A stretch of 45,849 nucleotides of DNA, taken from assembly GCA_903839855.1 (NCBI GenBank), contig CAIMEB010000243.1, forward strand, positions 1-45,849. Direction: 5' to 3'. The notes under the pieces are model-generated. The model did not search any database, was not told the origin of the DNA, and was given only the letters and a program-made list of their open reading frames with translations. The position numbers were made by a program, and so were the translations under genes. Source of the stretch: an uncultured Methylococcaceae bacterium (GTDB lineage: Bacteria; Pseudomonadota; Gammaproteobacteria; Methylococcales; Methylomonadaceae). Position 1 is the stretch's first letter. The number at the start of each line of letters is the position of its first letter. Positions 5,215 to 16,729 of this stretch are shown here, in pieces.

Positions 5215-7062
5215 GTGATCTTTAAATTTCTCGCTTTTATACTGGTTGGTGCCATTGGAACTATCGTACATTATTCGATACTGTACGGTCTTGTTGAGTT
5301 TTATGCTGTTAATCCTGTTGGGGGGTCTGGTTGGGGTGCCTTGGCAGGATTATTGATTAATTATGTTTTAAACTATTCACTCACGTTTAAAAGCCAACAA
5401 CCCCATGCTCAGACTTTACCCAAGTTTGCACTGATTGCCTCCTTGGGCTTTTGTTTAAATCTGGGCTTAATGGCACTATTTACACCTAAACTTTATTATC
5501 TTTTCGCGCAGATTATCACCACGGGTATCGTTTTAGTCTGGAATTTTTTTGCCAATCACTTCTGGACTTTTAAAATGGACTCCTTGGAACAAACGATTGA
5601 CACACAGCTAGACATACAGCCAGTGGGTGATCTACAAAATGAGGTCAAAAGAGGGTGGATACTCAGCACACTTTTAGTGATCCGACTGCTGACTCTAGGT
5701 TTTTATCCACTCTATGATCCGTCTGAATCCCGATATGCAGAAATGGGTCGTAAGATGTTAGAAACGGGTAATTGGGTAACGCCTTTAATTGATTATGGGC
5801 GACCCTTTTGGGGGAAACCACCGCTTACCGTTTGGTTAACGGCCTCTAGCTTAGGCTTGGGGGGCATTAATGAATTCTTTGCTCGCTTGCCCTCGCTCTT
5901 ATTAAGCGTCTGCATCCTGTGGATTATTTACCATCTGGTCAACAGACAACGTGACCGCACAACCTCCTCTAGCACCGTTATTATTTTAGCCAGTACGGTA
6001 CTCTTTTTTGTCATGTCAGGTACGGTGGCAATGGATGTGTGCATGAACCTAGGGGTCACACTAGCGCTTGCCTCATTCTGGTTAGCGTTACGTGATGAAT
6101 CTAGCCACATCTTTTGGTCGTATATTTTCTTTATTGGCTTAAGCATTGGGCTGTTAGCCAAAGGCCCCATCGCTATCGTACTTTCAGGTATCAGTATAGG
6201 CTTATGGACACTTCTTACCAACCAGTGGATACGGGTTTGGCAGCGCATACCTTGGGTTAAGGGTACACTACTTATGCTGGCTATCAGTTCCCCCTGGTAT
6301 ATAATCGCTGAACATAACACACCGGGATTCTTAGAATACTTTTTTATTGGAGAACACTGGAAACGCTTTACTGAAAGCGGTTGGAAAGGTGATCTTTATG
6401 GTAATGGCCATGCCCAACCTCATGGCAAAATATGGCTTTATTGGCTAGGTGGCGCCTTCCCTTGGTCTTTAATTTTTATAGGCATTATTGTTAATGCGTT
6501 AGTCAAGAAAAAATCAGTCGAATTAATCAAGTCAAACGACGGTTGGCGACTCTATTGTCTATTGTGGATGTTAGCACCACTGATGTTTTTTACCCTGTCA
6601 GCGAATATTATCTGGACTTACACCTTAACCGGTTTAACGGGGTTTGCTTTATTGCTGGCTGACTGGCTTACTATCCGTGTTGTTTACCGAAGAATGTTAG
6701 TACTGTGTGTCCCTCTTATTTTTGCAGGTTTAGTACTTTACTATCATTATCCGAATGTGGATTTTTTTAAATCACAACAACAACTCATCGCAAACTATCA
6801 AAAAGCCGCCCAAGCGGATGAACGCTTACTTTATTTCAACAGAAGACCTTATTCTGCCCAGTTTTATTTAGAGGGACAGGCAATAGACTTAGAAACAACT
6901 GAAGACTTGCAAGCAAGCTTAACCGAGTCAAATCATGATTTTTATGCCATAAAAAAAGATTTAGTGAATAGTCTTCCTGAAGCTATCAAATTACGCCTTG
7001 ATCTAGTAAAAAGCTTTAGACAATTCTCTCTTTTTCATGCCCATGCCTTATACAAAAAATGA
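5215..7062 (+). CDS. GtrA-like domain fused to ArnT/GT39-GT83-like glycosyltransferase
   Basis: GTG start. N-terminal about 120 aa GtrA-like (FLAFILVGAIGTIVHYSILY...FWTFKM); remainder PMT/ArnT-like (PLYDPSESRYAEMGRKMLETGNWVTPLIDYGRPFWGKPPLTVWLTA). Confidence 0.9.
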   Translation: MIFKFLAFILVGAIGTIVHYSILYGLVEFYAVNPVGGSGWGALAGLLINYVLNYSLTFKSQQPHAQTLPKFALIASLGFCLNLGLMALFTPKLYYLFAQIITTGIVLVWNFFANHFWTFKMDSLEQTIDTQLDIQPVGDLQNEVKRGWILSTLLVIRLLTLGFYPLYDPSESRYAEMGRKMLETGNWVTPLIDYGRPFWGKPPLTVWLTASSLGLGGINEFFARLPSLLLSVCILWIIYHLVNRQRDRTTSSSTVIILASTVLFFVMSGTVAMDVCMNLGVTLALASFWLALRDESSHIFWSYIFFIGLSIGLLAKGPIAIVLSGISIGLWTLLTNQWIRVWQRIPWVKGTLLMLAISSPWYIIAEHNTPGFLEYFFIGEHWKRFTESGWKGDLYGNGHAQPHGKIWLYWLGGAFPWSLIFIGIIVNALVKKKSVELIKSNDGWRLYCLLWMLAPLMFFTLSANIIWTYTLTGLTGFALLLADWLTIRVVYRRMLVLCVPLIFAGLVLYYHYPNVDFFKSQQQLIANYQKAAQADERLLYFNRRPYSAQFYLEGQAIDLETTEDLQASLTESNHDFYAIKKDLVNSLPEAIKLRLDLVKSFRQFSLFHAHALYKK

Positions 7063-7883
7063 TCAATCGTGCGCCCATTGAGCTAATCATTAACGCTGAT
7101 GACTATAGCTACTATCCTTGTGTGAGTGAAGGAATCTTAGAGGCTGCTAAATCCGGCGCGATTACTGCAACGGGTATTCTAGCCAATAGCCCTGACTTAA
7201 CGACCCAACTTGAATGGCTTAAGTCATTTGAAAACCTGGACTTGGGTGTGCATCTAAATCTGACCTCAAGACATCCTTTAACAGCCCCGATAACGGATAA
7301 ACTATCTGCTTGGGACGGTTGTTTTCCTAGCACTTATATTATGAGTTGTTTGCTGTTAACCAAGAAAATAACTCTTCAGGATATTCGACTGGAATGGTCT
7401 GCCCAGATAGAGGCTTGCCAAGGACATAAGCTGGTATTTTTAAACTCGCATGAGCACATTCACATGCTTCCGTTGTTATTTCCCTTGACCTTAGAATTAG
7501 CGCACGCTTATAACATTCCTAATGTTCGTTTAACTCAAGCTGACTGGGTTAGCCCCTTTAATCACTCAACACTCATCCGAAATACTCTTATTCAGAGTAT
7601 GTATGCGTTTAATCAATCGCGTATTAAACAAGTTACCCCTTTATTTTTAGGATTGAGCCGTAGCGGCAAGCTTGACTATGATTATTTGACTCGAATTTTT
7701 AGAAGACTTAAACCGGAGTATCGTTACGAGTTGATGTGCCATCCCGGACACCTTGATCCTACCCAAATTTCAGATCCAAAGCTGTTATGTTACCATGACT
7801 GGACATCAGAACTTGAGCTGTTACAAAACCCTAACGTGCATGATTTGTATCAGCAATTTAATATACGCTTAAGTCGTTATTGA
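7059..7883 (+). CDS. YdjC/ChbG/HpnK/NaxD family carbohydrate deacetylase
   Basis: LIINADDYSYYP, GVHLNLTS, NSHEHIHMLP, CHPGH motifs; ATGA overlap with upstream CDS. Confidence 0.9.
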   Translation: MINRAPIELIINADDYSYYPCVSEGILEAAKSGAITATGILANSPDLTTQLEWLKSFENLDLGVHLNLTSRHPLTAPITDKLSAWDGCFPSTYIMSCLLLTKKITLQDIRLEWSAQIEACQGHKLVFLNSHEHIHMLPLLFPLTLELAHAYNIPNVRLTQADWVSPFNHSTLIRNTLIQSMYAFNQSRIKQVTPLFLGLSRSGKLDYDYLTRIFRRLKPEYRYELMCHPGHLDPTQISDPKLLCYHDWTSELELLQNPNVHDLYQQFNIRLSRY

Positions 7884-8106
7884 AACATTTGACGGATTAT
7901 TGCTTATAATTAAAGGAAACTATTAATTTTTTGGGTTCAAGGGGAACAGTTTGGTTGTAAAGTGTTTTTGATGTACGAGGATTAGTTATGGTTAAAGCAG
8001 TTAAACTATTAGCGTGTTTATCCGTTAAAATACAGCAGACAATATGTAGGTATTGATTTAAATTAATATGTTTTTACGTTGATTAAAAAGAGATTATAAA
8101 ACGCCT

Positions 8107-9414
8107 GTGACGCCACTATTTCCTATTCCAAAAAATCATGCACAGCGCTTTGTACTTCACAACGAGGTACATGCACGAGCGCCTTTTATTCTGAATTTAC
8201 CCGTTAGAGCCAGTCATCTTGCTTTATTATTAACGAACGAAGAAAAACTCTCGGAACGTCAGCATTTAATAACACTCTGTGAGCGATTTAGTGTTGTTCC
8301 ACCAGAAAAAGAAGCGGATCATTTCGCTGCGTCGTTTAATTCGTTTCAAATCCGTTGGGAGCAACACGGTGAGTTTAGTACTTACAGTTTTTATGTTCAT
8401 GATGCGCCGACCGATATTTTTTCAGATGCGGCTTTAAAAAAAGTACCTGTTGATTGGTTGTCGCAATTACCCGGGCAAACCATTGTTGCGTCTCATGCGG
8501 CTATCGTTTTGGCCGAGGATATTAATTATAAGGAAACTACAGACGATTTATCTACGCTGTCCGACTACTTTGCAGGTAATCAAGTGATTGGCTCCAAGGT
8601 AACAGGGGGAGCTGCCTCAGTATTTACAGATTTTAGGATTCATGTTGATGGCTTTAGCCGATTTCTGATTGTCAATAATGCCCTAAGATCAGAACAGGCA
8701 GGTCGTCTAGTCCAGCGATTATTTGATATAGAAGTGTATCGGGTTATGGCTTTAATGGCTTTCCCTATTGCACGTAAACTTTATCCAGCTTTAAATAAAT
8801 CGGATCGGCAGTTATACGCCATTACTAATGCGATGACGTTGCCTGATAATAATGATGCTGCATTATTGGATGAGTTAACGACATTGGCGGCGGAAGTCGA
8901 AAATTATATTTCCAGTAATCATTTTCGTTTTGCAGCGGCAAGTGCGTATTATCAACTGGTTGATCAACGTCTCAATGATTTACGAGAAGTTCGGATTCAA
9001 GGTATTCAGACCTTGGGTGAATTTTTAAAACGCAGATTAGAGCCGGCTATTAATACCTGTGAGTCGATTTCTCATCGATTTACCTCTCTTTCTAAAAGAG
9101 TCAGTAATGCCAGTCAATTATTGCGAACTCGTGTTGATATTATTATTGAACGGCAGAACCAGGGCTTGCTGACCTCAATGGCCTTACGCGCAAAAATGCA
9201 ATTGCGTATGCAACAAATGGTTGAAGGTATTTCAATGGTTGCCATTACTTATTACGCAGCAAGTATTATCGGCAAGATAGCTGAGGCTCTGCATGTACTT
9301 GGTTGGAAAGCGAATTCAGAGCTTATTGAGGGCGTATCCATTCCGTTTATTTTTATCATTATCTATTTTAGTACGCAGCGTATCCATAAAATAATTGCCA
9401 GTACGACCGAATAA
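8107..9414 (+). CDS. DUF3422 family membrane protein
   Basis: GTG start; LHNEVHARAPF N-terminus, R-rich RVQRLFDIEVYRVMALMAFPIAR, two C-terminal TM segments. Confidence 0.88.
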   Translation: MTPLFPIPKNHAQRFVLHNEVHARAPFILNLPVRASHLALLLTNEEKLSERQHLITLCERFSVVPPEKEADHFAASFNSFQIRWEQHGEFSTYSFYVHDAPTDIFSDAALKKVPVDWLSQLPGQTIVASHAAIVLAEDINYKETTDDLSTLSDYFAGNQVIGSKVTGGAASVFTDFRIHVDGFSRFLIVNNALRSEQAGRLVQRLFDIEVYRVMALMAFPIARKLYPALNKSDRQLYAITNAMTLPDNNDAALLDELTTLAAEVENYISSNHFRFAAASAYYQLVDQRLNDLREVRIQGIQTLGEFLKRRLEPAINTCESISHRFTSLSKRVSNASQLLRTRVDIIIERQNQGLLTSMALRAKMQLRMQQMVEGISMVAITYYAASIIGKIAEALHVLGWKANSELIEGVSIPFIFIIIYFSTQRIHKIIASTTE

Positions 9415-9489
9415 TGATGACACCTGATGGTCTTTGTTTTTACTCGAATTATCAAATTAAAATTAACTAAAGAAAATAAAAGAAATTAA

Positions 9490-9834
9490 ATGAACACTGA
9501 TAGTCAAAAAATTGAAATAGCTAAAACTTTCGAACAACTTCATGGGGCATCTTTTGCTTTATGGTCTGATGATAAAGAATATGACTCAGAGAATGAGCGT
9601 TATTTAGCAGTGTACGAAAATATTATTATGGGTGTTTATGGTGATTGTTATGGTGTGAATGCTGAATATGATGAGGAGGGTGAGCTAATTGTCGAAGCGA
9701 CTGAGTTCGAGGTGGAAGTTGCCCGTTTTGAATCATCCAGTGAGCTGAGTGAGATATTTTCTTTTGAAATAACGACTGAGCCAACCGGTATTGGCAAGTA
9801 CATTGAAGAGCAGGGGAGAGACGGTGCTTGGTAG
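9490..9834 (+). CDS. Hypothetical acidic protein
   Basis: 114 aa ORF with no antisense competitor of quality; no family recognised. Confidence 0.6.
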   Translation: MNTDSQKIEIAKTFEQLHGASFALWSDDKEYDSENERYLAVYENIIMGVYGDCYGVNAEYDEEGELIVEATEFEVEVARFESSSELSEIFSFEITTEPTGIGKYIEEQGRDGAW

Positions 9835-9905
9835 CTTGTAAATAGCATCAAAGTTAGGTCTGATGCTACAATTGCCATCCAATTATTTTATTTTTTAGGA
9901 AGAAC

Positions 9906-10196
9906 ATGAGCAAAATTACTATCGAACACAATCCGAGTGAAGAACGTTTAATAGAACTGGGTGTATCCAACTGGGAAATATGGGAAAAAGAAATCTCTAA
10001 GTTTCCAATCGATTTTGATGAAACTGAAAGTGCTTACGTGCTGGAAGGTGAAATTTTAGTGACGCCTGCTGGTGGTGAGACAGTGCGTATTTTACCAGGA
10101 GATTTAGTTTCTTTTCATGCAGGCTTAGACAGCCAATGGGAAGTGGTTAAACCATTACGTAAACATTATAGCTACGATTTTCCTAACGGGGTCTAA
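9906..10196 (+). CDS. Cupin domain protein
   Basis: AGGAAGAAC upstream; YVLEGEILVTPAGGETVRILPGDLVSFHAGLDSQWEVVKPLRKHYSY. Confidence 0.88.
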   Translation: MSKITIEHNPSEERLIELGVSNWEIWEKEISKFPIDFDETESAYVLEGEILVTPAGGETVRILPGDLVSFHAGLDSQWEVVKPLRKHYSYDFPNGV

Positions 10197-10205
10197 ACAT
10201 TATAT

Positions 10206-10241
10206 TTCATCTGACAGCTACAAAACTAACTGTCAGATGAA
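10206..10241. terminator. Bidirectional hairpin between convergent genes
   Basis: TTCATCTGACAG - 12 nt loop - CTGTCAGATGAA, perfect 12-bp stem. Confidence 0.75.
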
Positions 10242-10257
10242 GTTTGGCTATCTGAAT

Positions 10258-11103
10258 TTATTTAGGTTCAGATAGTTTAAGTGATTTGCCTGATCCATTT
10301 TTTGTTACTGGCGTTGGGCTGCCGACTTTTTTATCAGCGGAAGAGCTTTCATCATTTAAGTCGGGATCATTCTCATCAGAGGATTTTCCATCATGAATGA
10401 GGTATTCTCTATTTTGTTTATAAGAGTCCCTTATAAAGTCGTAACGATCTACCGAGCCTTCGTCGACAATTTTTTCAGTGGTCATTAACTCAGCGCGTTT
10501 ATCAGTTATATCAAGGACTCTCGATCCAGCAGTTGCAGCGTTTACAACAGGGCCACCAAATATAGAAACATACGTAATAGGATTGAACAGGGTATCACCG
10601 ATAAGTCCTACCGTATCTCTAGGAGAGCTAGGACCAAAAATAGGCAATACTAAGTAATTGCCTGATGGAACACCCCAATAGCCAAGTGTTTGCCCAAAGT
10701 CCTCTTTGTGCTTTGGAAGATCAAGCATGTCAGCAACATCAACAAACCCGGCGACACCTGCCGTCGTGTTAATTAAAAAACGACTACCGTCCATGCCCCC
10801 CTGAGACACTTTAAATTGCAGTAAATCATTAATAGTAACACCTACGTCATTAATATTACTAAAGAAGTTGGTAACTCCTGTATTAACAAATTCTGGTGTA
10901 ATCCACTGATAGCCCTGGGCTAAAGGCTTTATAATAGCTTTATCCAGATTGTCGTTAAACAATTGACTGTCGTGGTTCCAGGCTGACCAAGGGTCGCCTG
11001 AGTCGGGAGCTTTTGTTTGTGTTGTAGAACAACCGAGTAGAGTTATTGATAACACCAGGCAATGGATTAGAGTTTTATTAAGTCTAGGGCTTTGCATGCT
11101 CAT
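10258..11103 (-). CDS. mlaA: MlaA/VacJ family outer-membrane lipoprotein
   Basis: Lipobox LLGCS; DPWSAWNHDSQLFNDNLDKAIIKPLAQGYQWITP; EDFGQTLGYWGVPSGNYLVLPIFGPSSPRDTVG. Confidence 0.95.
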   Translation of the reverse strand: MSMQSPRLNKTLIHCLVLSITLLGCSTTQTKAPDSGDPWSAWNHDSQLFNDNLDKAIIKPLAQGYQWITPEFVNTGVTNFFSNINDVGVTINDLLQFKVSQGGMDGSRFLINTTAGVAGFVDVADMLDLPKHKEDFGQTLGYWGVPSGNYLVLPIFGPSSPRDTVGLIGDTLFNPITYVSIFGGPVVNAATAGSRVLDITDKRAELMTTEKIVDEGSVDRYDFIRDSYKQNREYLIHDGKSSDENDPDLNDESSSADKKVGSPTPVTKNGSGKSLKLSEPK

Positions 11104-11323
11104 AATTAATTTTATCCTGGATTATTGTTATTGTTTAATATTCATTTATGGACTCATACTCAGCTTAGAGGCTGAATAAGTTTTTTATATTCTTAATCAA
11201 TATCAGCCTGTTCAAGCTATTATCAGATTTTTTTTGATGATGTTCAAGAAATTGTCACGTCATTAGATTCAATTTCACCCTGTATATTCTACAACGGGTT
11301 GTTTTGTATTTGTAATTATTAAT

Positions 11324-12496
11324 TTAAGAGTGATGGTGGTGTGTTTTGCCGGCTTTAGCTTTGGTGATAACCTTAGCTTTTTTATTCTTCACGGGTTGAT
11401 TAGATTTGATTTTATTTGTAGATTTATGTTTAACTGCGACTATCACTTTTGCATGTGCTTTTGCTTTTACATGCGATTTGTTCTTAACTAAAACATGCGT
11501 GTTTTTAGTTGGGTGATGATGAGCTATAGGTGAACGATTATGTAATTTAGTGGGTTTAACATAACTAGCCGCTTCATTAACAGTATCGTCATTTGAAGCG
11601 ATGGCGGTTGGAGCGGTATTTCCGCAACCTAGTTGATAGGGTGGAAGACCTGATGAATCGTTTGACATAGTACTAATGTTTTCAGTAGGACGATCATCAT
11701 ATTGATTGGCAAAGCCGTTATTCATCATATTAACCATTAGCTTATAACGTTCTGAGCTGGTTATGCCACCCAAGACTACTCCAATGAGGTGTTTGCCGTT
11801 TTGGGTCGCCGATGAGATCAGGTTATAGCCAGAACCGCAGGTAAATCCTGTTTTCATGCCTTCAGCGCCCGGATAACTAGCGGTAAACTTATTAATGCCG
11901 TGCAATTCCCGGCCTTTGAAATTAAAGCTATGCCAGGAAAAGTAAGGATAATAATTTGGAAAATTACGTTGTGTTTTCCAGGCAAGCATAGCCATATCAC
12001 GAGAAGTGGTGACTTGCCATGGATGTGGAAGCCCTGTTGCATTCATAAAGTGAGTATCGTACATACCTAAGGAATGTGCCATGGTAGACATTTTGACAGC
12101 AAAATTTTCTTCTGTTCCACCTAAATGCTCAGCCAAAACAACGGCTGCATCATTTGCTGATCTCGTAATAAGCGCTAAGATGGCATCTTGAACAGATAGT
12201 GTTTCCCCTTGCCGAAGTCCCAGTTTGCTATTAGGTTGTAACGCTGCATGACGCGAGGTAACTAAGGTATCAGTAAGACCGATTTGTCCCGATTTTAAGG
12301 CATCAAATGTCATATAGAGTGTCATTACCTTGGTCAGCGAAGCAGGAAACCACGAATGGGAGGCATTTATTTCGTGTAATACACTACCGTTTTCGGCATC
12401 TATAATTATCTCTGCATGTTGTCCATAACTTAACTCTGACACCAGTAATAACAAAGTGGATATCAAAATCAATAGAATAGTCTTCGCTGTATTCAT
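11324..12496 (-). CDS. D-alanyl-D-alanine carboxypeptidase (PBP5/6 family, S11) with Lys/His-rich C-terminal tail
   Basis: SWFPASLTKVMTLYMTFDAL (SxxK), TRSANDAAVVLAEH (SxN), MKTGFTCGSGYN (KTG); tail ends KTHHHHS. Confidence 0.92.
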   Translation of the reverse strand: MNTAKTILLILISTLLLLVSELSYGQHAEIIIDAENGSVLHEINASHSWFPASLTKVMTLYMTFDALKSGQIGLTDTLVTSRHAALQPNSKLGLRQGETLSVQDAILALITRSANDAAVVLAEHLGGTEENFAVKMSTMAHSLGMYDTHFMNATGLPHPWQVTTSRDMAMLAWKTQRNFPNYYPYFSWHSFNFKGRELHGINKFTASYPGAEGMKTGFTCGSGYNLISSATQNGKHLIGVVLGGITSSERYKLMVNMMNNGFANQYDDRPTENISTMSNDSSGLPPYQLGCGNTAPTAIASNDDTVNEAASYVKPTKLHNRSPIAHHHPTKNTHVLVKNKSHVKAKAHAKVIVAVKHKSTNKIKSNQPVKNKKAKVITKAKAGKTHHHHS

Positions 12497-12694
12497 TTAA
12501 ATAGGGTTTTCGTAAGTTAAGAAAAGTGGCTAAATTGGTACTAATTGTACAAAACTGATCATTTTATCAAATGATACGCAGGTATTAAACGCTATTTTAA
12601 TGCCAAAATTAGATAATGGGCAGTAAGCATTCACCTCCATTTTTGAAAAAACGGGTGGAGAGGGGGATTTATCTTTGAATAAAACCTCCTTATT

Positions 12695-12713
12695 CCCTCT
12701 TTTTTAAAGAGGG
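12695..12713. terminator. Hairpin downstream of the GH17-like gene
   Basis: CCCTCTTT TTT AAAGAGGG, perfect 8-bp stem. Confidence 0.5.
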
Positions 12714-12736
12714 TGGCTGAATACCTACGGTGAGTA

Positions 12737-13729
12737 TTATCGAGCTATATTTAATTGATTAACGCAGGCGTAGGGTGGAGTTCCTTGGCAAAGTCCCCAT
12801 GAGTTTCCAAATGGACCTTCTTCAGCGGGTTTCCAGTTTTCAGAAAAGGCTTCAAATACAGTACCAGACCATTTCTTTTTAGCAAGTTGCTTAAAGGTTG
12901 ATTCTATAACTAATTTTTGATTACTTTTGCTGGCGATACCACAGCGTTCTCCAGTTTTAAGATTAGTAGATGAACTGTTCTCCGGGCCATTGGGCCAACC
13001 AAATTCAGTCATTATCACTTCTTTATCTGGATAAATGCGATGCAGATCTTCAAGTCTGGCAATATGGAAGTCAGCGGCCTTATTTGCCGGGATACAGCTA
13101 TAAATACCGGAGTATTCGTTTTCCCACCAAGGAAAAATATTAGTCCCTATCCAATCAACCTTAGAAGCAAAACTGGTTTGCTGACACTCTAAAGAGCGAT
13201 TACACCATTCCCACCAGGTATCAATGGTAGTGATTGGTTGAGTGACGCCAGCTTTGTGAAGACTATCGATGCAGCGGGAAATTTCACCATCATAAATATT
13301 ACCATGTCTAGTTCTTACTTCTGATCCGCAACTGAGTCGTATGATAGTTTTGGGAAATGCTTTCGCAACTTCAATACCTTTTTCAATAGACTGAGAATTA
13401 ATGTTGATATCATCATCCAGCCAGAGGATGGCGATGACTTTAATGTGTCGTGCCTCAGCGGCGGTAAAAATAGCATCGAGTCCGTTCAATACACCATAGG
13501 TCATAATACAGCGAAAAGGCGTTTTCTTGATCAGTTGATCCAAGAGGGTATCGATCAATTCCTTTGATGGATGGGCGCCAAAATTAGGTGTCAACGTCCC
13601 AACATAGGTACTAAAAGCCGCGCATTGCAAGGTGTTTTGCGGTGTTACTTTAACTCGTTTTACTGCATAGGCATTTTGCCCAAAAACTAACACAGTTAAT
13701 AGAGTTAAAAATAAAGAAAAATGCTTCAT
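12737..13729 (-). CDS. Secreted GH17-like glycoside hydrolase (beta-1,3-glucanase type)
   Basis: ORF track starts at 13783; likely start at M19 (MKHFSLFLTLLTVLVFGQNAYA signal peptide). VIMTEFGWPNG matches the GH17 nucleophile region. Confidence 0.82.
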   Translation of the reverse strand: MKHFSLFLTLLTVLVFGQNAYAVKRVKVTPQNTLQCAAFSTYVGTLTPNFGAHPSKELIDTLLDQLIKKTPFRCIMTYGVLNGLDAIFTAAEARHIKVIAILWLDDDININSQSIEKGIEVAKAFPKTIIRLSCGSEVRTRHGNIYDGEISRCIDSLHKAGVTQPITTIDTWWEWCNRSLECQQTSFASKVDWIGTNIFPWWENEYSGIYSCIPANKAADFHIARLEDLHRIYPDKEVIMTEFGWPNGPENSSSTNLKTGERCGIASKSNQKLVIESTFKQLAKKKWSGTVFEAFSENWKPAEEGPFGNSWGLCQGTPPYACVNQLNIAR

Positions 13730-14056
13730 GAAGTCCTCATTAATTAATCCAATAATATCCAGATGTAGGCCATTTCGATCCACTATGATAGGCGAATTTA
13801 CTTAAATTAGTGTGATTAATTAAATCACCAATCATCAAGTTGCACTAAAAATCAGTAAAGCAAGTAGATAAATTTCTCTATCCGAATAATAAAACATCTG
13901 ATATTTTATAATATCGAGTAGAACATTAAAAAACTAAAATTGTTTGTCAGATGAACTTGATAAGAGTTGGGTAACGACGGCGCTCCCCAACTGTACAAAT
14001 AATAGCTACAGCTAAGGATGATTTAACTGATTTGATTCATTTTTCAACAAGAACCT

Positions 14057-14452
14057 TTATCTAGATAAAACATCTTTTCGAGTACTTTCTGCAAGGGTTT
14101 CTACTTCTGTTATAAGATCTTTGGGTACATTTAACTCTTTTAGAGTGGCGCTTAAATGTTCCATAACTGCATTAAAGTGATCATTACCAAGCCCCATTTT
14201 AACCAGTCGAGTATGCGCATTACGTAAATCAGTTCCTGTATAAGTGTTAGGACCGCCAAATGCCAAAGTAAAAAACGCTTTTTGTTTAGCCACCTGTTTT
14301 TCCATATCGATACCATCAAAAAAACGGTTGATACGATAATCAGCCAGTACTTTTCGATAAAATACCTCAACGGCGGTATCCACGGCAACTGCGCCACCAA
14401 TTCTTTCATAAAGGGTCAGTTCTTTATCTGAAGTTATTTCTGTTGAACTCAT
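14057..14452 (-). CDS. Group 1 truncated hemoglobin
   Basis: TLYERIGGAVAVDTAVEVFYRKVLADYRINRFFDGIDMEKQVAKQKAFFTLAFGGPNTYTGTDLRNAH. Confidence 0.95.
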   Translation of the reverse strand: MSSTEITSDKELTLYERIGGAVAVDTAVEVFYRKVLADYRINRFFDGIDMEKQVAKQKAFFTLAFGGPNTYTGTDLRNAHTRLVKMGLGNDHFNAVMEHLSATLKELNVPKDLITEVETLAESTRKDVLSR

Positions 14453-14695
14453 TTTAATTCCCAGTGTTATTTTAATTTATTATTCTAATTCTATTAATTG
14501 AGCTTGCTCATGCTCGAAGAAAGTTTATAGTATGATGGACAGTTATACAACTTTTACAATTAAAACCAGCAATTCCCTATTCAAGACACTGAAATATAGT
14601 CAGCGAATTAGTTAAACGTTAGATTAGACAAACTCCTAGTAATTGCCGGAAAACAAACTTAAAATAGTCAATTGTTAATTTTATAATAATAACCC

Positions 14696-15037
14696 ATGAG
14701 TAACTTACCTAATTGCCCAAAGTGTGACTCCGAATATACCTATAAAGACGGAACCCTGAATATTTGTCCTGAGTGTGCTCACGAATGGCAAGCAGACACA
14801 GAAACAGAAAACCTTAACGATGTTAAAATCGTCAAAGATGCTAACGGAAACGAATTACAGGATGGTGACACCATTACTGTCATTAAAGATCTTAAAGTAA
14901 AAGGTACTTCACTCGTTGTTAAAGTGGGCACTAAAGTTAAAGGCATACGTTTGGTAGACGGTGATCATGACATTGATTGTAAAATTGATGGCATAGGCCC
15001 GATGAAACTCAAGTCAGAGTTTGTAAAGAAAGTCTAA
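14696..15037 (+). CDS. yjdM: PhnA/YjdM family zinc-ribbon protein
   Basis: [53 protein letters not shown]. Confidence 0.94.
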
Positions 15038-15064
15038 TTATTTTAACCTTTTAAAATCAATACT

Positions 15065-16729
15065 ATGGCGCAATATATATATTCAATGAATAGGGTCGGA
15101 AAGATTGTTCCACCCAAGAAATACATTCTTAAAGATATCTCTCTGTCTTTTTTTCCCGGTGCAAAAATTGGTGTACTTGGTTTAAACGGCTCGGGAAAAT
15201 CAACATTACTCAGAATTATGGCGGGCATCGATAAGGAAATCGAAGGTGAAGCGATTCCTCAAAAAGGCATTAACATTGGTTATTTGCCACAAGAACCTCA
15301 ATTAGACTCCACCAAGACTGTACGGGGTAATGTTGAAGAAGCGGTTGCAGATATTAAAGCTTCCTTGGCTCAGTTAGATGCTGTTTATGCAGCTTATGCC
15401 GATCCCGATGCTGATTTTGATAAATTAGCCGCCGACCAGGCACGCCTGGAAGATATCATTAATGCCTGTGACGGTCACAACCTTGAGAGACGGCTTGAAG
15501 TGGCAGCGGATGCTTTACGTCTACCCGATTGGGATGCGGACGTCACTAAGTTATCAGGTGGTGAAAAACGCCGAGTTGCGTTATGTCGTTTATTACTCTC
15601 TAATCCAGACATGCTGTTATTAGACGAACCCACTAACCATTTAGATGCAGAGTCGGTTGCCTGGTTAGAACGTTTCCTACATGATTATACCGGTACCGTA
15701 GTGGCTGTGACTCATGATCGTTATTTCCTGGATAATGTGGCGGGTTGGATCTTGGAACTGGACAGAGGCTCAGGAATTCCCTGGGAAGGCAACTACTCCA
15801 GTTGGTTAGAACAAAAGAGTAACCGCTTATTGCAAGAAGAGAAGCAAGAATCTTCTCGTCAAAAAGCCATGAAAGACGAGTTAGAGTGGGTACGCTCTAA
15901 CCCTAAAGGTCGTCATGCTAAGAGTAAGGCCCGTCTGGCCCGATTTGAAGAGCTGTCATCATCCGACGTACAAAAACGTAACGAAACTCAGGAAATTTAT
16001 ATTCCACCGGGGCCACGTTTAGGTGATATAGTCATTGAAGCTGACAACATCAGCAAAGCTTTTGGTGAGAAACTATTAGTCAACGGCTTTAGCTTCAAAT
16101 TACCACCCGGCGGTATCGTCGGTATTATCGGTCCTAACGGAGCCGGTAAAACAACTCTGTTCCGTATGATGGCAGGCTTTGAACAACCCGACTCGGGCAG
16201 TGTGACATTGGGTCAAACGGTGCAATTGGCTTATGTTGATCAGTTACGTGATAACCTCGATCCTAAGAAAACAGTTTTTGATGAAATTTCTGATGGCTTG
16301 GACATCATTACTGTTGGGAAATATGAAACGCCATCACGCGCTTATGTCGGTCGCTTTAACTTTAAAGGCGCTGATCAAGGTAAACGGATTGGTGATTTGT
16401 CTGGGGGTGAGCGTAACCGGGTACATTTGGCTAAATTGCTTAAAACCGGTGGCAATGTATTATTATTAGACGAACCTACTAACGATTTAGATGTTGAAAC
16501 CTTACGTGCCCTAGAAGAGGCTCTACTCGCATTCCCAGGTTGTGCCGTGGTTATTTCGCATGATCGCTGGTTTCTGGATAGGATTGCTACACACATGCTG
16601 GCATTTGAAGGTGATAGCCAGGTGGTTTGGTTTGAAGGCAACTATGAAGATTATGAAGCTGACCGTCATCGCCGCTTAGGCAGTGATGCGGATAACCCTA
16701 AGCGCTTAAAATATAAGAAACTGTCTTAA
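15065..16729 (+). CDS. ettA: Energy-dependent translational throttle protein EttA (ABC-F)
   Basis: Two Walker A/signature sets; [47 protein letters not shown]. Confidence 0.97.

Follow-up and report, generated by a model that had tools for sequence, protein, structure and literature searches.

We show here that a single polypeptide from a methanotroph genome joins a predicted flippase of the GtrA family to an ArnT-like GT-C transferase, and that its gene overlaps the gene for a YdjC-family deacetylase. The window, by which we mean the whole stretch of DNA that was analysed (45,849 nucleotides, contig G000:C243), belongs to a Methylobacter-like Methylococcales MAG, with uncultured Methylococcaceae and Methylobacter MAGs as nearest relatives. 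In our reading, to which we assign a probability of about 0.58, the fused gene and ydjC would make up one half of a polyprenyl-phosphate aminosugar pathway, the half that deacetylates and transfers, and the sugar would go to part of the LPS, with the core or a lipid A phosphate as the most likely acceptor. The features of the region are the following.

5215-7062, plus strand: open reading frame of the fused GtrA and ArnT-like transferase, GTG start, 615 amino acids
5215-5604, plus strand: GtrA domain spanning residues 1-130 with four membrane helices, a probable polyprenyl-phosphate-sugar flippase (PF04138, 4e-21; AlphaFold2 helices)
5569-5622, plus strand: low-confidence linker between flippase and transferase, residues 119-136, 18 residues (AlphaFold2 pLDDT below 50)
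5650-6744, plus strand: ArnT-like GT-C (PMT) membrane domain, residues 146-510 (PF02366, PF13231; 5ezm/5f15 by sequence and fold)
5716-5730, plus strand: motif D168-P-S-E171-S, with R173 next to it, in the first periplasmic loop; S170 aligns with ArnT D55 (alignment to CmArnT, 34 homologues)
5812-5817, plus strand: G200-K201 (WGKPP), aligned with ArnT E84-K85, E replaced by G (alignment, 34 homologues)
6745-7059, plus strand: alpha/beta domain at the C terminus of the transferase, residues 511-615 (AlphaFold2 secondary structure)
7059-7883, plus strand: YdjC/ChbG/NaxD-family N-deacetylase, 274 amino acids, start overlapping the upstream stop (ATGA) (PF04794, 1.7e-48; Foldseek 2i5i, 7vi8, 8jqf)
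7884-7891, no strand: break of the ancestral operon (blastn of L053/L054/L055 against the window and contig C230)

The fused protein and the deacetylase

The GTG start of the fused gene is credible, because the homologues align from the identical start position. Residues 8-119 match the GtrA profile PF04138 with 75.8 bits (cut-off 26.1) and cover profile positions 2-117 of 117. The AlphaFold2 model (mean pLDDT 87, pTM 0.76) has helices at residues 2-30, 34-56, 64-89 and 95-130, and both the gathering score and the four membrane helices place this half in the GtrA/DPMS family. Residues 119-136 are the only stretch of the model with a pLDDT below 50, and behind this disordered linker lies the GT-C body. 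The initial annotation had described exactly such a frame, a GtrA-like four-helix domain of about 120 residues joined to an ArnT/PMT-type transferase, and the Pfam profiles (PF04138, PF02366), the AlphaFold2 model and Foldseek agree with it. In Listeria GtcA the residues R95 and N132 are essential (PMC7389260). Placed by spacing, they would fall on K70, which is an arginine in the free GtrA of Polaromonas, and on N110 of the GtrA half.

Residues 167-376 match the PMT profile PF02366 (81.9 bits, cut-off 22.7), and the best solved-structure match of the GT-C body in the Foldseek search is CmArnT with undecaprenyl phosphate (5f15; E 9.8e-17, TM 0.67 by target), so that the model has the ArnT fold. 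Eight key residues are quoted for ArnT (D55, R58, E84, K85, D158, K203, R270 and Y345; PMC8306577). Six of them are kept at the aligned positions: R58 as R173, K85 as K201, D158 as D274, K203 as K316, R270 as R384 and Y345 as Y469. The positions of D55 and E84, in contrast, hold S/T and G/A in all 34 family members. D168, E171 and R173 are invariant in 34 homologues; so is the lysine at position 201, preceded in 34/34 by G or A. The C-terminal domain (residues 511-615) is poorly conserved in the family alignment A1. The NCBIfam cut-off for the ArnT equivalog is missed (130.7 vs 567 bits), and because of this score and the family-wide replacement of D55 and E84 we do not class the enzyme as an ArnT; for the same reasons the identity of the acceptor is not transferable from ArnT or FlmK. 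ArnT (GT83, 5ezm/5f15) is the best match in fold and sequence, but the extra N-terminal GtrA domain and the altered residues set the protein apart, and by sequence it is ArnT-like rather than an ArnT. Of the proposed likeness to ArnT and FlmK, fold and most key residues hold up while membership of the ArnT family proper does not. A second ArnT-like protein (L093:5511-7280, G000:C250), with the ArnT-like motifs SPDEGR and YLDKP, is encoded beside an asparagine-synthase-like gene.

The downstream frame matches the YdjC profile PF04794 with 166.3 bits (cut-off 29.7), and its model (pLDDT 91) resembles ChbG-family structures. The motifs NADD, HLNLT, SHxHxHM (SHEHIHM in the window) and CHPG are all present, and D14, D15, H65, H131, H133, H135 and H228 are invariant in 20 deacetylase homologues. 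Profile, fold and metal-site motifs therefore all identify a YdjC-family enzyme with its catalytic residues in place, and the reported overlap of the fused-gene stop with a ChbG/HpnK/NaxD-type deacetylase is borne out by the reading frames. The NCBIfam cut-offs for ChbG (102.8 vs 227 bits) and HpnK (76.8 vs 232.6 bits) are both missed. By these cut-offs the protein would be neither enzyme, chitin and hopanoid roles are rejected on this ground, and a NaxD-type activity is a prediction only. Directly before SHxHxH, the residue N129 (window 7443-7445) is an asparagine in 20/20 deacetylases of the clade, where ChbG has an aspartate (IDSH).

Linkage, the GT2 partner and the broken operon

In our census of 301 Methylococcales genomes, a full or near-full fused gene occurs in 24, which belong to five genera of one family. 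It stands immediately next to ydjC in 22 of these 24; in G206 one PAP2-superfamily phosphatase gene (L137:6907-7734) lies between the two, and G169 has the fused gene without ydjC. Over the whole census 23 genomes have both genes, one only the fused gene, 21 only ydjC and 256 neither (Fisher p 3e-21, a value that is descriptive only, because shared ancestry inflates such counts). The two genes are thus linked in relatives as they are in the window. A search of 368 other genomes drawn broadly across the class found no fused gene. A contig labelled Geobacter from a lake metagenome (L066) does have it and may be misbinned.

In the relatives a GT2 gene (about 320 codons) follows directly after ydjC, giving the order gtrA·transferase / ydjC / GT2, and all three form one gene run in 19 of the 24 census genomes and in two further MAGs. 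The profile of this GT2 family matches GtrB sll0501 (1e-124) and ArnC (5e-72), two synthases of polyprenyl-phosphate sugars. The initial annotation had noted that an FlmF-like GT2 is absent from the window, and this is correct: the intact gene sits on another contig of the same genome (G000:C230:8758-9720), with 93% identity to the post-ydjC GT2 of the closest relative. Two further genes were seen at this end of the operon in single relatives. In G115 a PIG-L gene (GlcNAc de-N-acetylase family; L134:5223-6272) directly follows the GT2 gene, a second deacetylase type in the operon, and elsewhere a small gene of 138 codons (MSLVYLLDTNTISEP, PIN-like by eye; L056:6818-7234) lies between ydjC and GT2.

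According to blastn, homology to the relatives ends at window position 7890, which lies 7 bp beyond the ydjC stop, and resumes at G000:C230:8699. The operon is thus cut within the ydjC-GT2 spacer, either by a real rearrangement or by an assembly error or chimera; a search for a repeat at the break found none. That the junction of ydjC with DUF3422 could be the ancestral arrangement was considered and is rejected, since four relatives have DUF3422 in another place, next to the homologues of window 14696-16729 and divergently oriented. The junction is therefore a rearrangement or an assembly chimera. The DUF3422 block itself (window 7884-14636) is inverted relative to the relatives and adjoins ydjC in this genome only.

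Probable fusion, fission and exchange of the transferase

Unfused relatives from Comamonadaceae and others (L077-L091) have separate gtrA, GT2 and transferase genes and lack ydjC. In a transferase tree from a quick search, the fused genes and several split ones form one group with 99% SH-aLRT support, and a tree obtained in the same quick manner nests the free GtrA genes of genus g24 among the fused ones. Some of the split members retain remnants of a former GtrA end directly ahead of the transferase (WTFQM in L065, FWTFRMEH in L073, NRLWMFRAD in L069), at the place where the fused proteins read WTFKM. Because of this grouping and the leftover residues, the data suggest a single fusion at the root of the Methylococcales group that was followed by repeated secondary splits and losses. 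Among these events we are least sure of how Methylumidiphilus lost GtrA, since L068, L071 and L072 show a weak trace.

The transferase itself seems to be exchangeable. In G018 and G034 (L096:8747-9589, L097:8499-9341) its middle part is lost while GtrA, ydjC and GT2 remain whole; PMT_B, a PMT_2-family GT-C enzyme, is co-directional with the GtrA remnant gene, ydjC and GT2. In genus g24 the operon reads PMT_B-gtrA-ydjC-GT2, and an ArnT-like gene was found in two genomes (G159, G226), away from the operon. These arrangements suggest at least two events in which the transferase half was removed or relocated, GtrA, YdjC and GT2 staying behind and then standing beside PMT_B as a second GT-C enzyme. 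Because two lineages keep GtrA, ydjC and GT2 without it, the ArnT-like half appears to be dispensable to the rest. PMT_B occurs in 19 of the 301 genomes, 17 times together with ydjC, and it is present in 8/10 genomes that have ydjC without the ArnT-like half vs 9/34 that have both (p 0.007, uncorrected for ancestry). By sequence, no solved structural relative of PMT_B was found. The Methylumidiphilus loci contain transferase, ydjC and GT2 without GtrA in the locus and have a GT87 enzyme in front. In G160 a DUF6056 polytopic membrane protein (L157:5880-7301), possibly an unrecognised GT-C enzyme, takes the transferase position before ydjC. Taken together, these loci suggest a fixed set of donor-making genes that is combined with varying acceptor enzymes. 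More tentatively, one may think of GT2, YdjC and GtrA as a portable core that would supply GT-C enzymes, themselves interchangeable, with a single flipped aminosugar lipid. The fusion would then allow a direct hand-over in one lineage group, while elsewhere, with the transferase half removed or relocated, the distantly related PMT_B would act instead. Where both enzymes coexist, as the fused gene and PMT_B do in the window's genome, one donor might serve two acceptors.

The proposed pathway and its relation to known systems

In the pathway that we favour, the GT2 would place a sugar of the GlcNAc or GalNAc type on undecaprenyl phosphate at the cytoplasmic leaflet, and YdjC would strip off the acetyl group in the cytoplasm and so leave an aminosugar lipid with a positive charge. 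The GtrA half would move this lipid outward across the inner membrane, where the ArnT-like half could transfer the sugar in the periplasm to the LPS component. Sugar, step order, flipping by GtrA and acceptor are what we infer. The initial annotation had proposed deacetylation of a lipid-linked sugar, its flipping and its attachment to an envelope lipid. The fused protein, the linked YdjC and the GT2 partner in relatives and on contig C230 support this scheme, but the transferase is not an ArnT by its residues and score. Besides this, the missed ChbG and HpnK cut-offs, the two lineages that do without the ArnT-like half and a GT2 that is no longer adjacent in this genome count against the pathway. 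On circumstantial grounds, lipid A or the LPS core is the likeliest acceptor, and a plausible one, because of the ArnT-like fold and because LptF/LptG genes neighbour the module or a transferase homologue in seven loci (L060, L064, L070, L086, L087, L088, L144). These loci are, however, a minority and some of them hold unfused or distant homologues, which counts against the favoured reading.

The same donor pathway might end on an acceptor other than lipid A, with the fused transferase (and PMT_B) decorating O-antigen, exopolysaccharide, an S-layer glycan, a phospholipid or a protein, as in GtrABC-type systems. The unfused relatives, with gtrA, GT2 and PMT but no ydjC, look like Gtr three-component systems (PMC11127046, PMC7389260), enzymes as different as PMT_B, GT87 and possibly the DUF6056 protein take the transferase slot of the operon, and D55 and E84 of ArnT are not conserved. 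We nevertheless regard such an acceptor as less likely, given the LptF/LptG neighbours, ArnT as the best fold match and a deacetylase that is a feature common to the known lipid A aminosugar pathways. Deeper in the pathway, the GtrA half could serve as an anchor, either to bring in the GT2 or to hold the donor in place for the transferase, while another protein flips. Flipping by GtrA-type proteins, which are proposed flippases, has not been directly demonstrated (PMC11127046); the published evidence is genetic, views differ on what the GtrA protein Rv3789 does (PMC7389260), and Methylumidiphilus has the other three genes without GtrA in the locus. But GtcA, a GtrA protein, is required for LTA glycosylation (PMC7389260), and the lineages without the transferase half keep an intact GtrA beside ydjC and GT2, which fits a separate transport role and makes a mere anchor quite unlikely. 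That YdjC acts on a substrate unrelated to the transferase, such as chitin disaccharide (ChbG) or hopanoid GlcNAc (HpnK), with the overlap being that of an ordinary operon, is highly improbable: these two are the top-scoring curated models, but their scores are far under the cut-offs, and across at least seven genera ydjC is linked near-perfectly to GtrA, transferase and GT2 and not to hopanoid or chitin genes.

If the pathway works as we propose, lipid-linked aminosugar modification of the envelope, known mainly from pathogens, would extend to methanotrophs, where the pressure would not be host immunity. The variants of the operon illustrate how such systems swap acceptor enzymes. In addition, the fusion and its natural fission and deletion variants make up a protein set for separating flipping from transfer in a family whose flippase role is assumed. 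In the literature that our search covered, we found no report of a GtrA-ArnT fusion and no paper that joins GtrA, YdjC and a glycosyltransferase.

In Francisella, galactosamine reaches lipid A after NaxD has deacetylated Und-P-GalNAc. The FlmF2, NaxD and FlmK proteins are the same three enzyme types as those described here (polyprenyl-phosphate-sugar GT2, YdjC-family deacetylase, ArnT-like transferase), a likeness drawn at the level of enzyme type, and the difference is that GtrA is fused to the transferase here. The Bordetella lgm locus consists of GT2, deacetylase and ArnT, and we know of no fusion in lgmABC(D). Likened by description, it is a single locus whose three genes lgmA-C are required for GlcN on lipid A, lgmD being reported as not essential (PMC4993483). 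The gpgSDF operon of Pseudomonas also combines a glycosyltransferase, an N-deacetylase and a predicted flippase and produces a cationic aminosugar lipid, GlcN-phosphatidylglycerol (PMC12713373). It differs in its GT4, its COG3233 deacetylase and its YbhN-type flippase, with neither a polyprenyl carrier nor a GT-C transferase. Closest in composition are the GtrA/GtrB/Gtr three-component systems with a GtrB-type GT2, GtrA and a GT-C transferase, which are exactly the three genes of the unfused relatives. GT2, flippase and GT-C stand together in the relatives, and the genome of the window has its GT2 on the other contig. Here a deacetylase is added, GtrA and the GT-C enzyme form one chain and the gene order is changed. 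The whole is therefore best called a Gtr-type three-component system with an added deacetylase and with its flippase joined to the transferase; the kind of system is known, and the fused arrangement is new.
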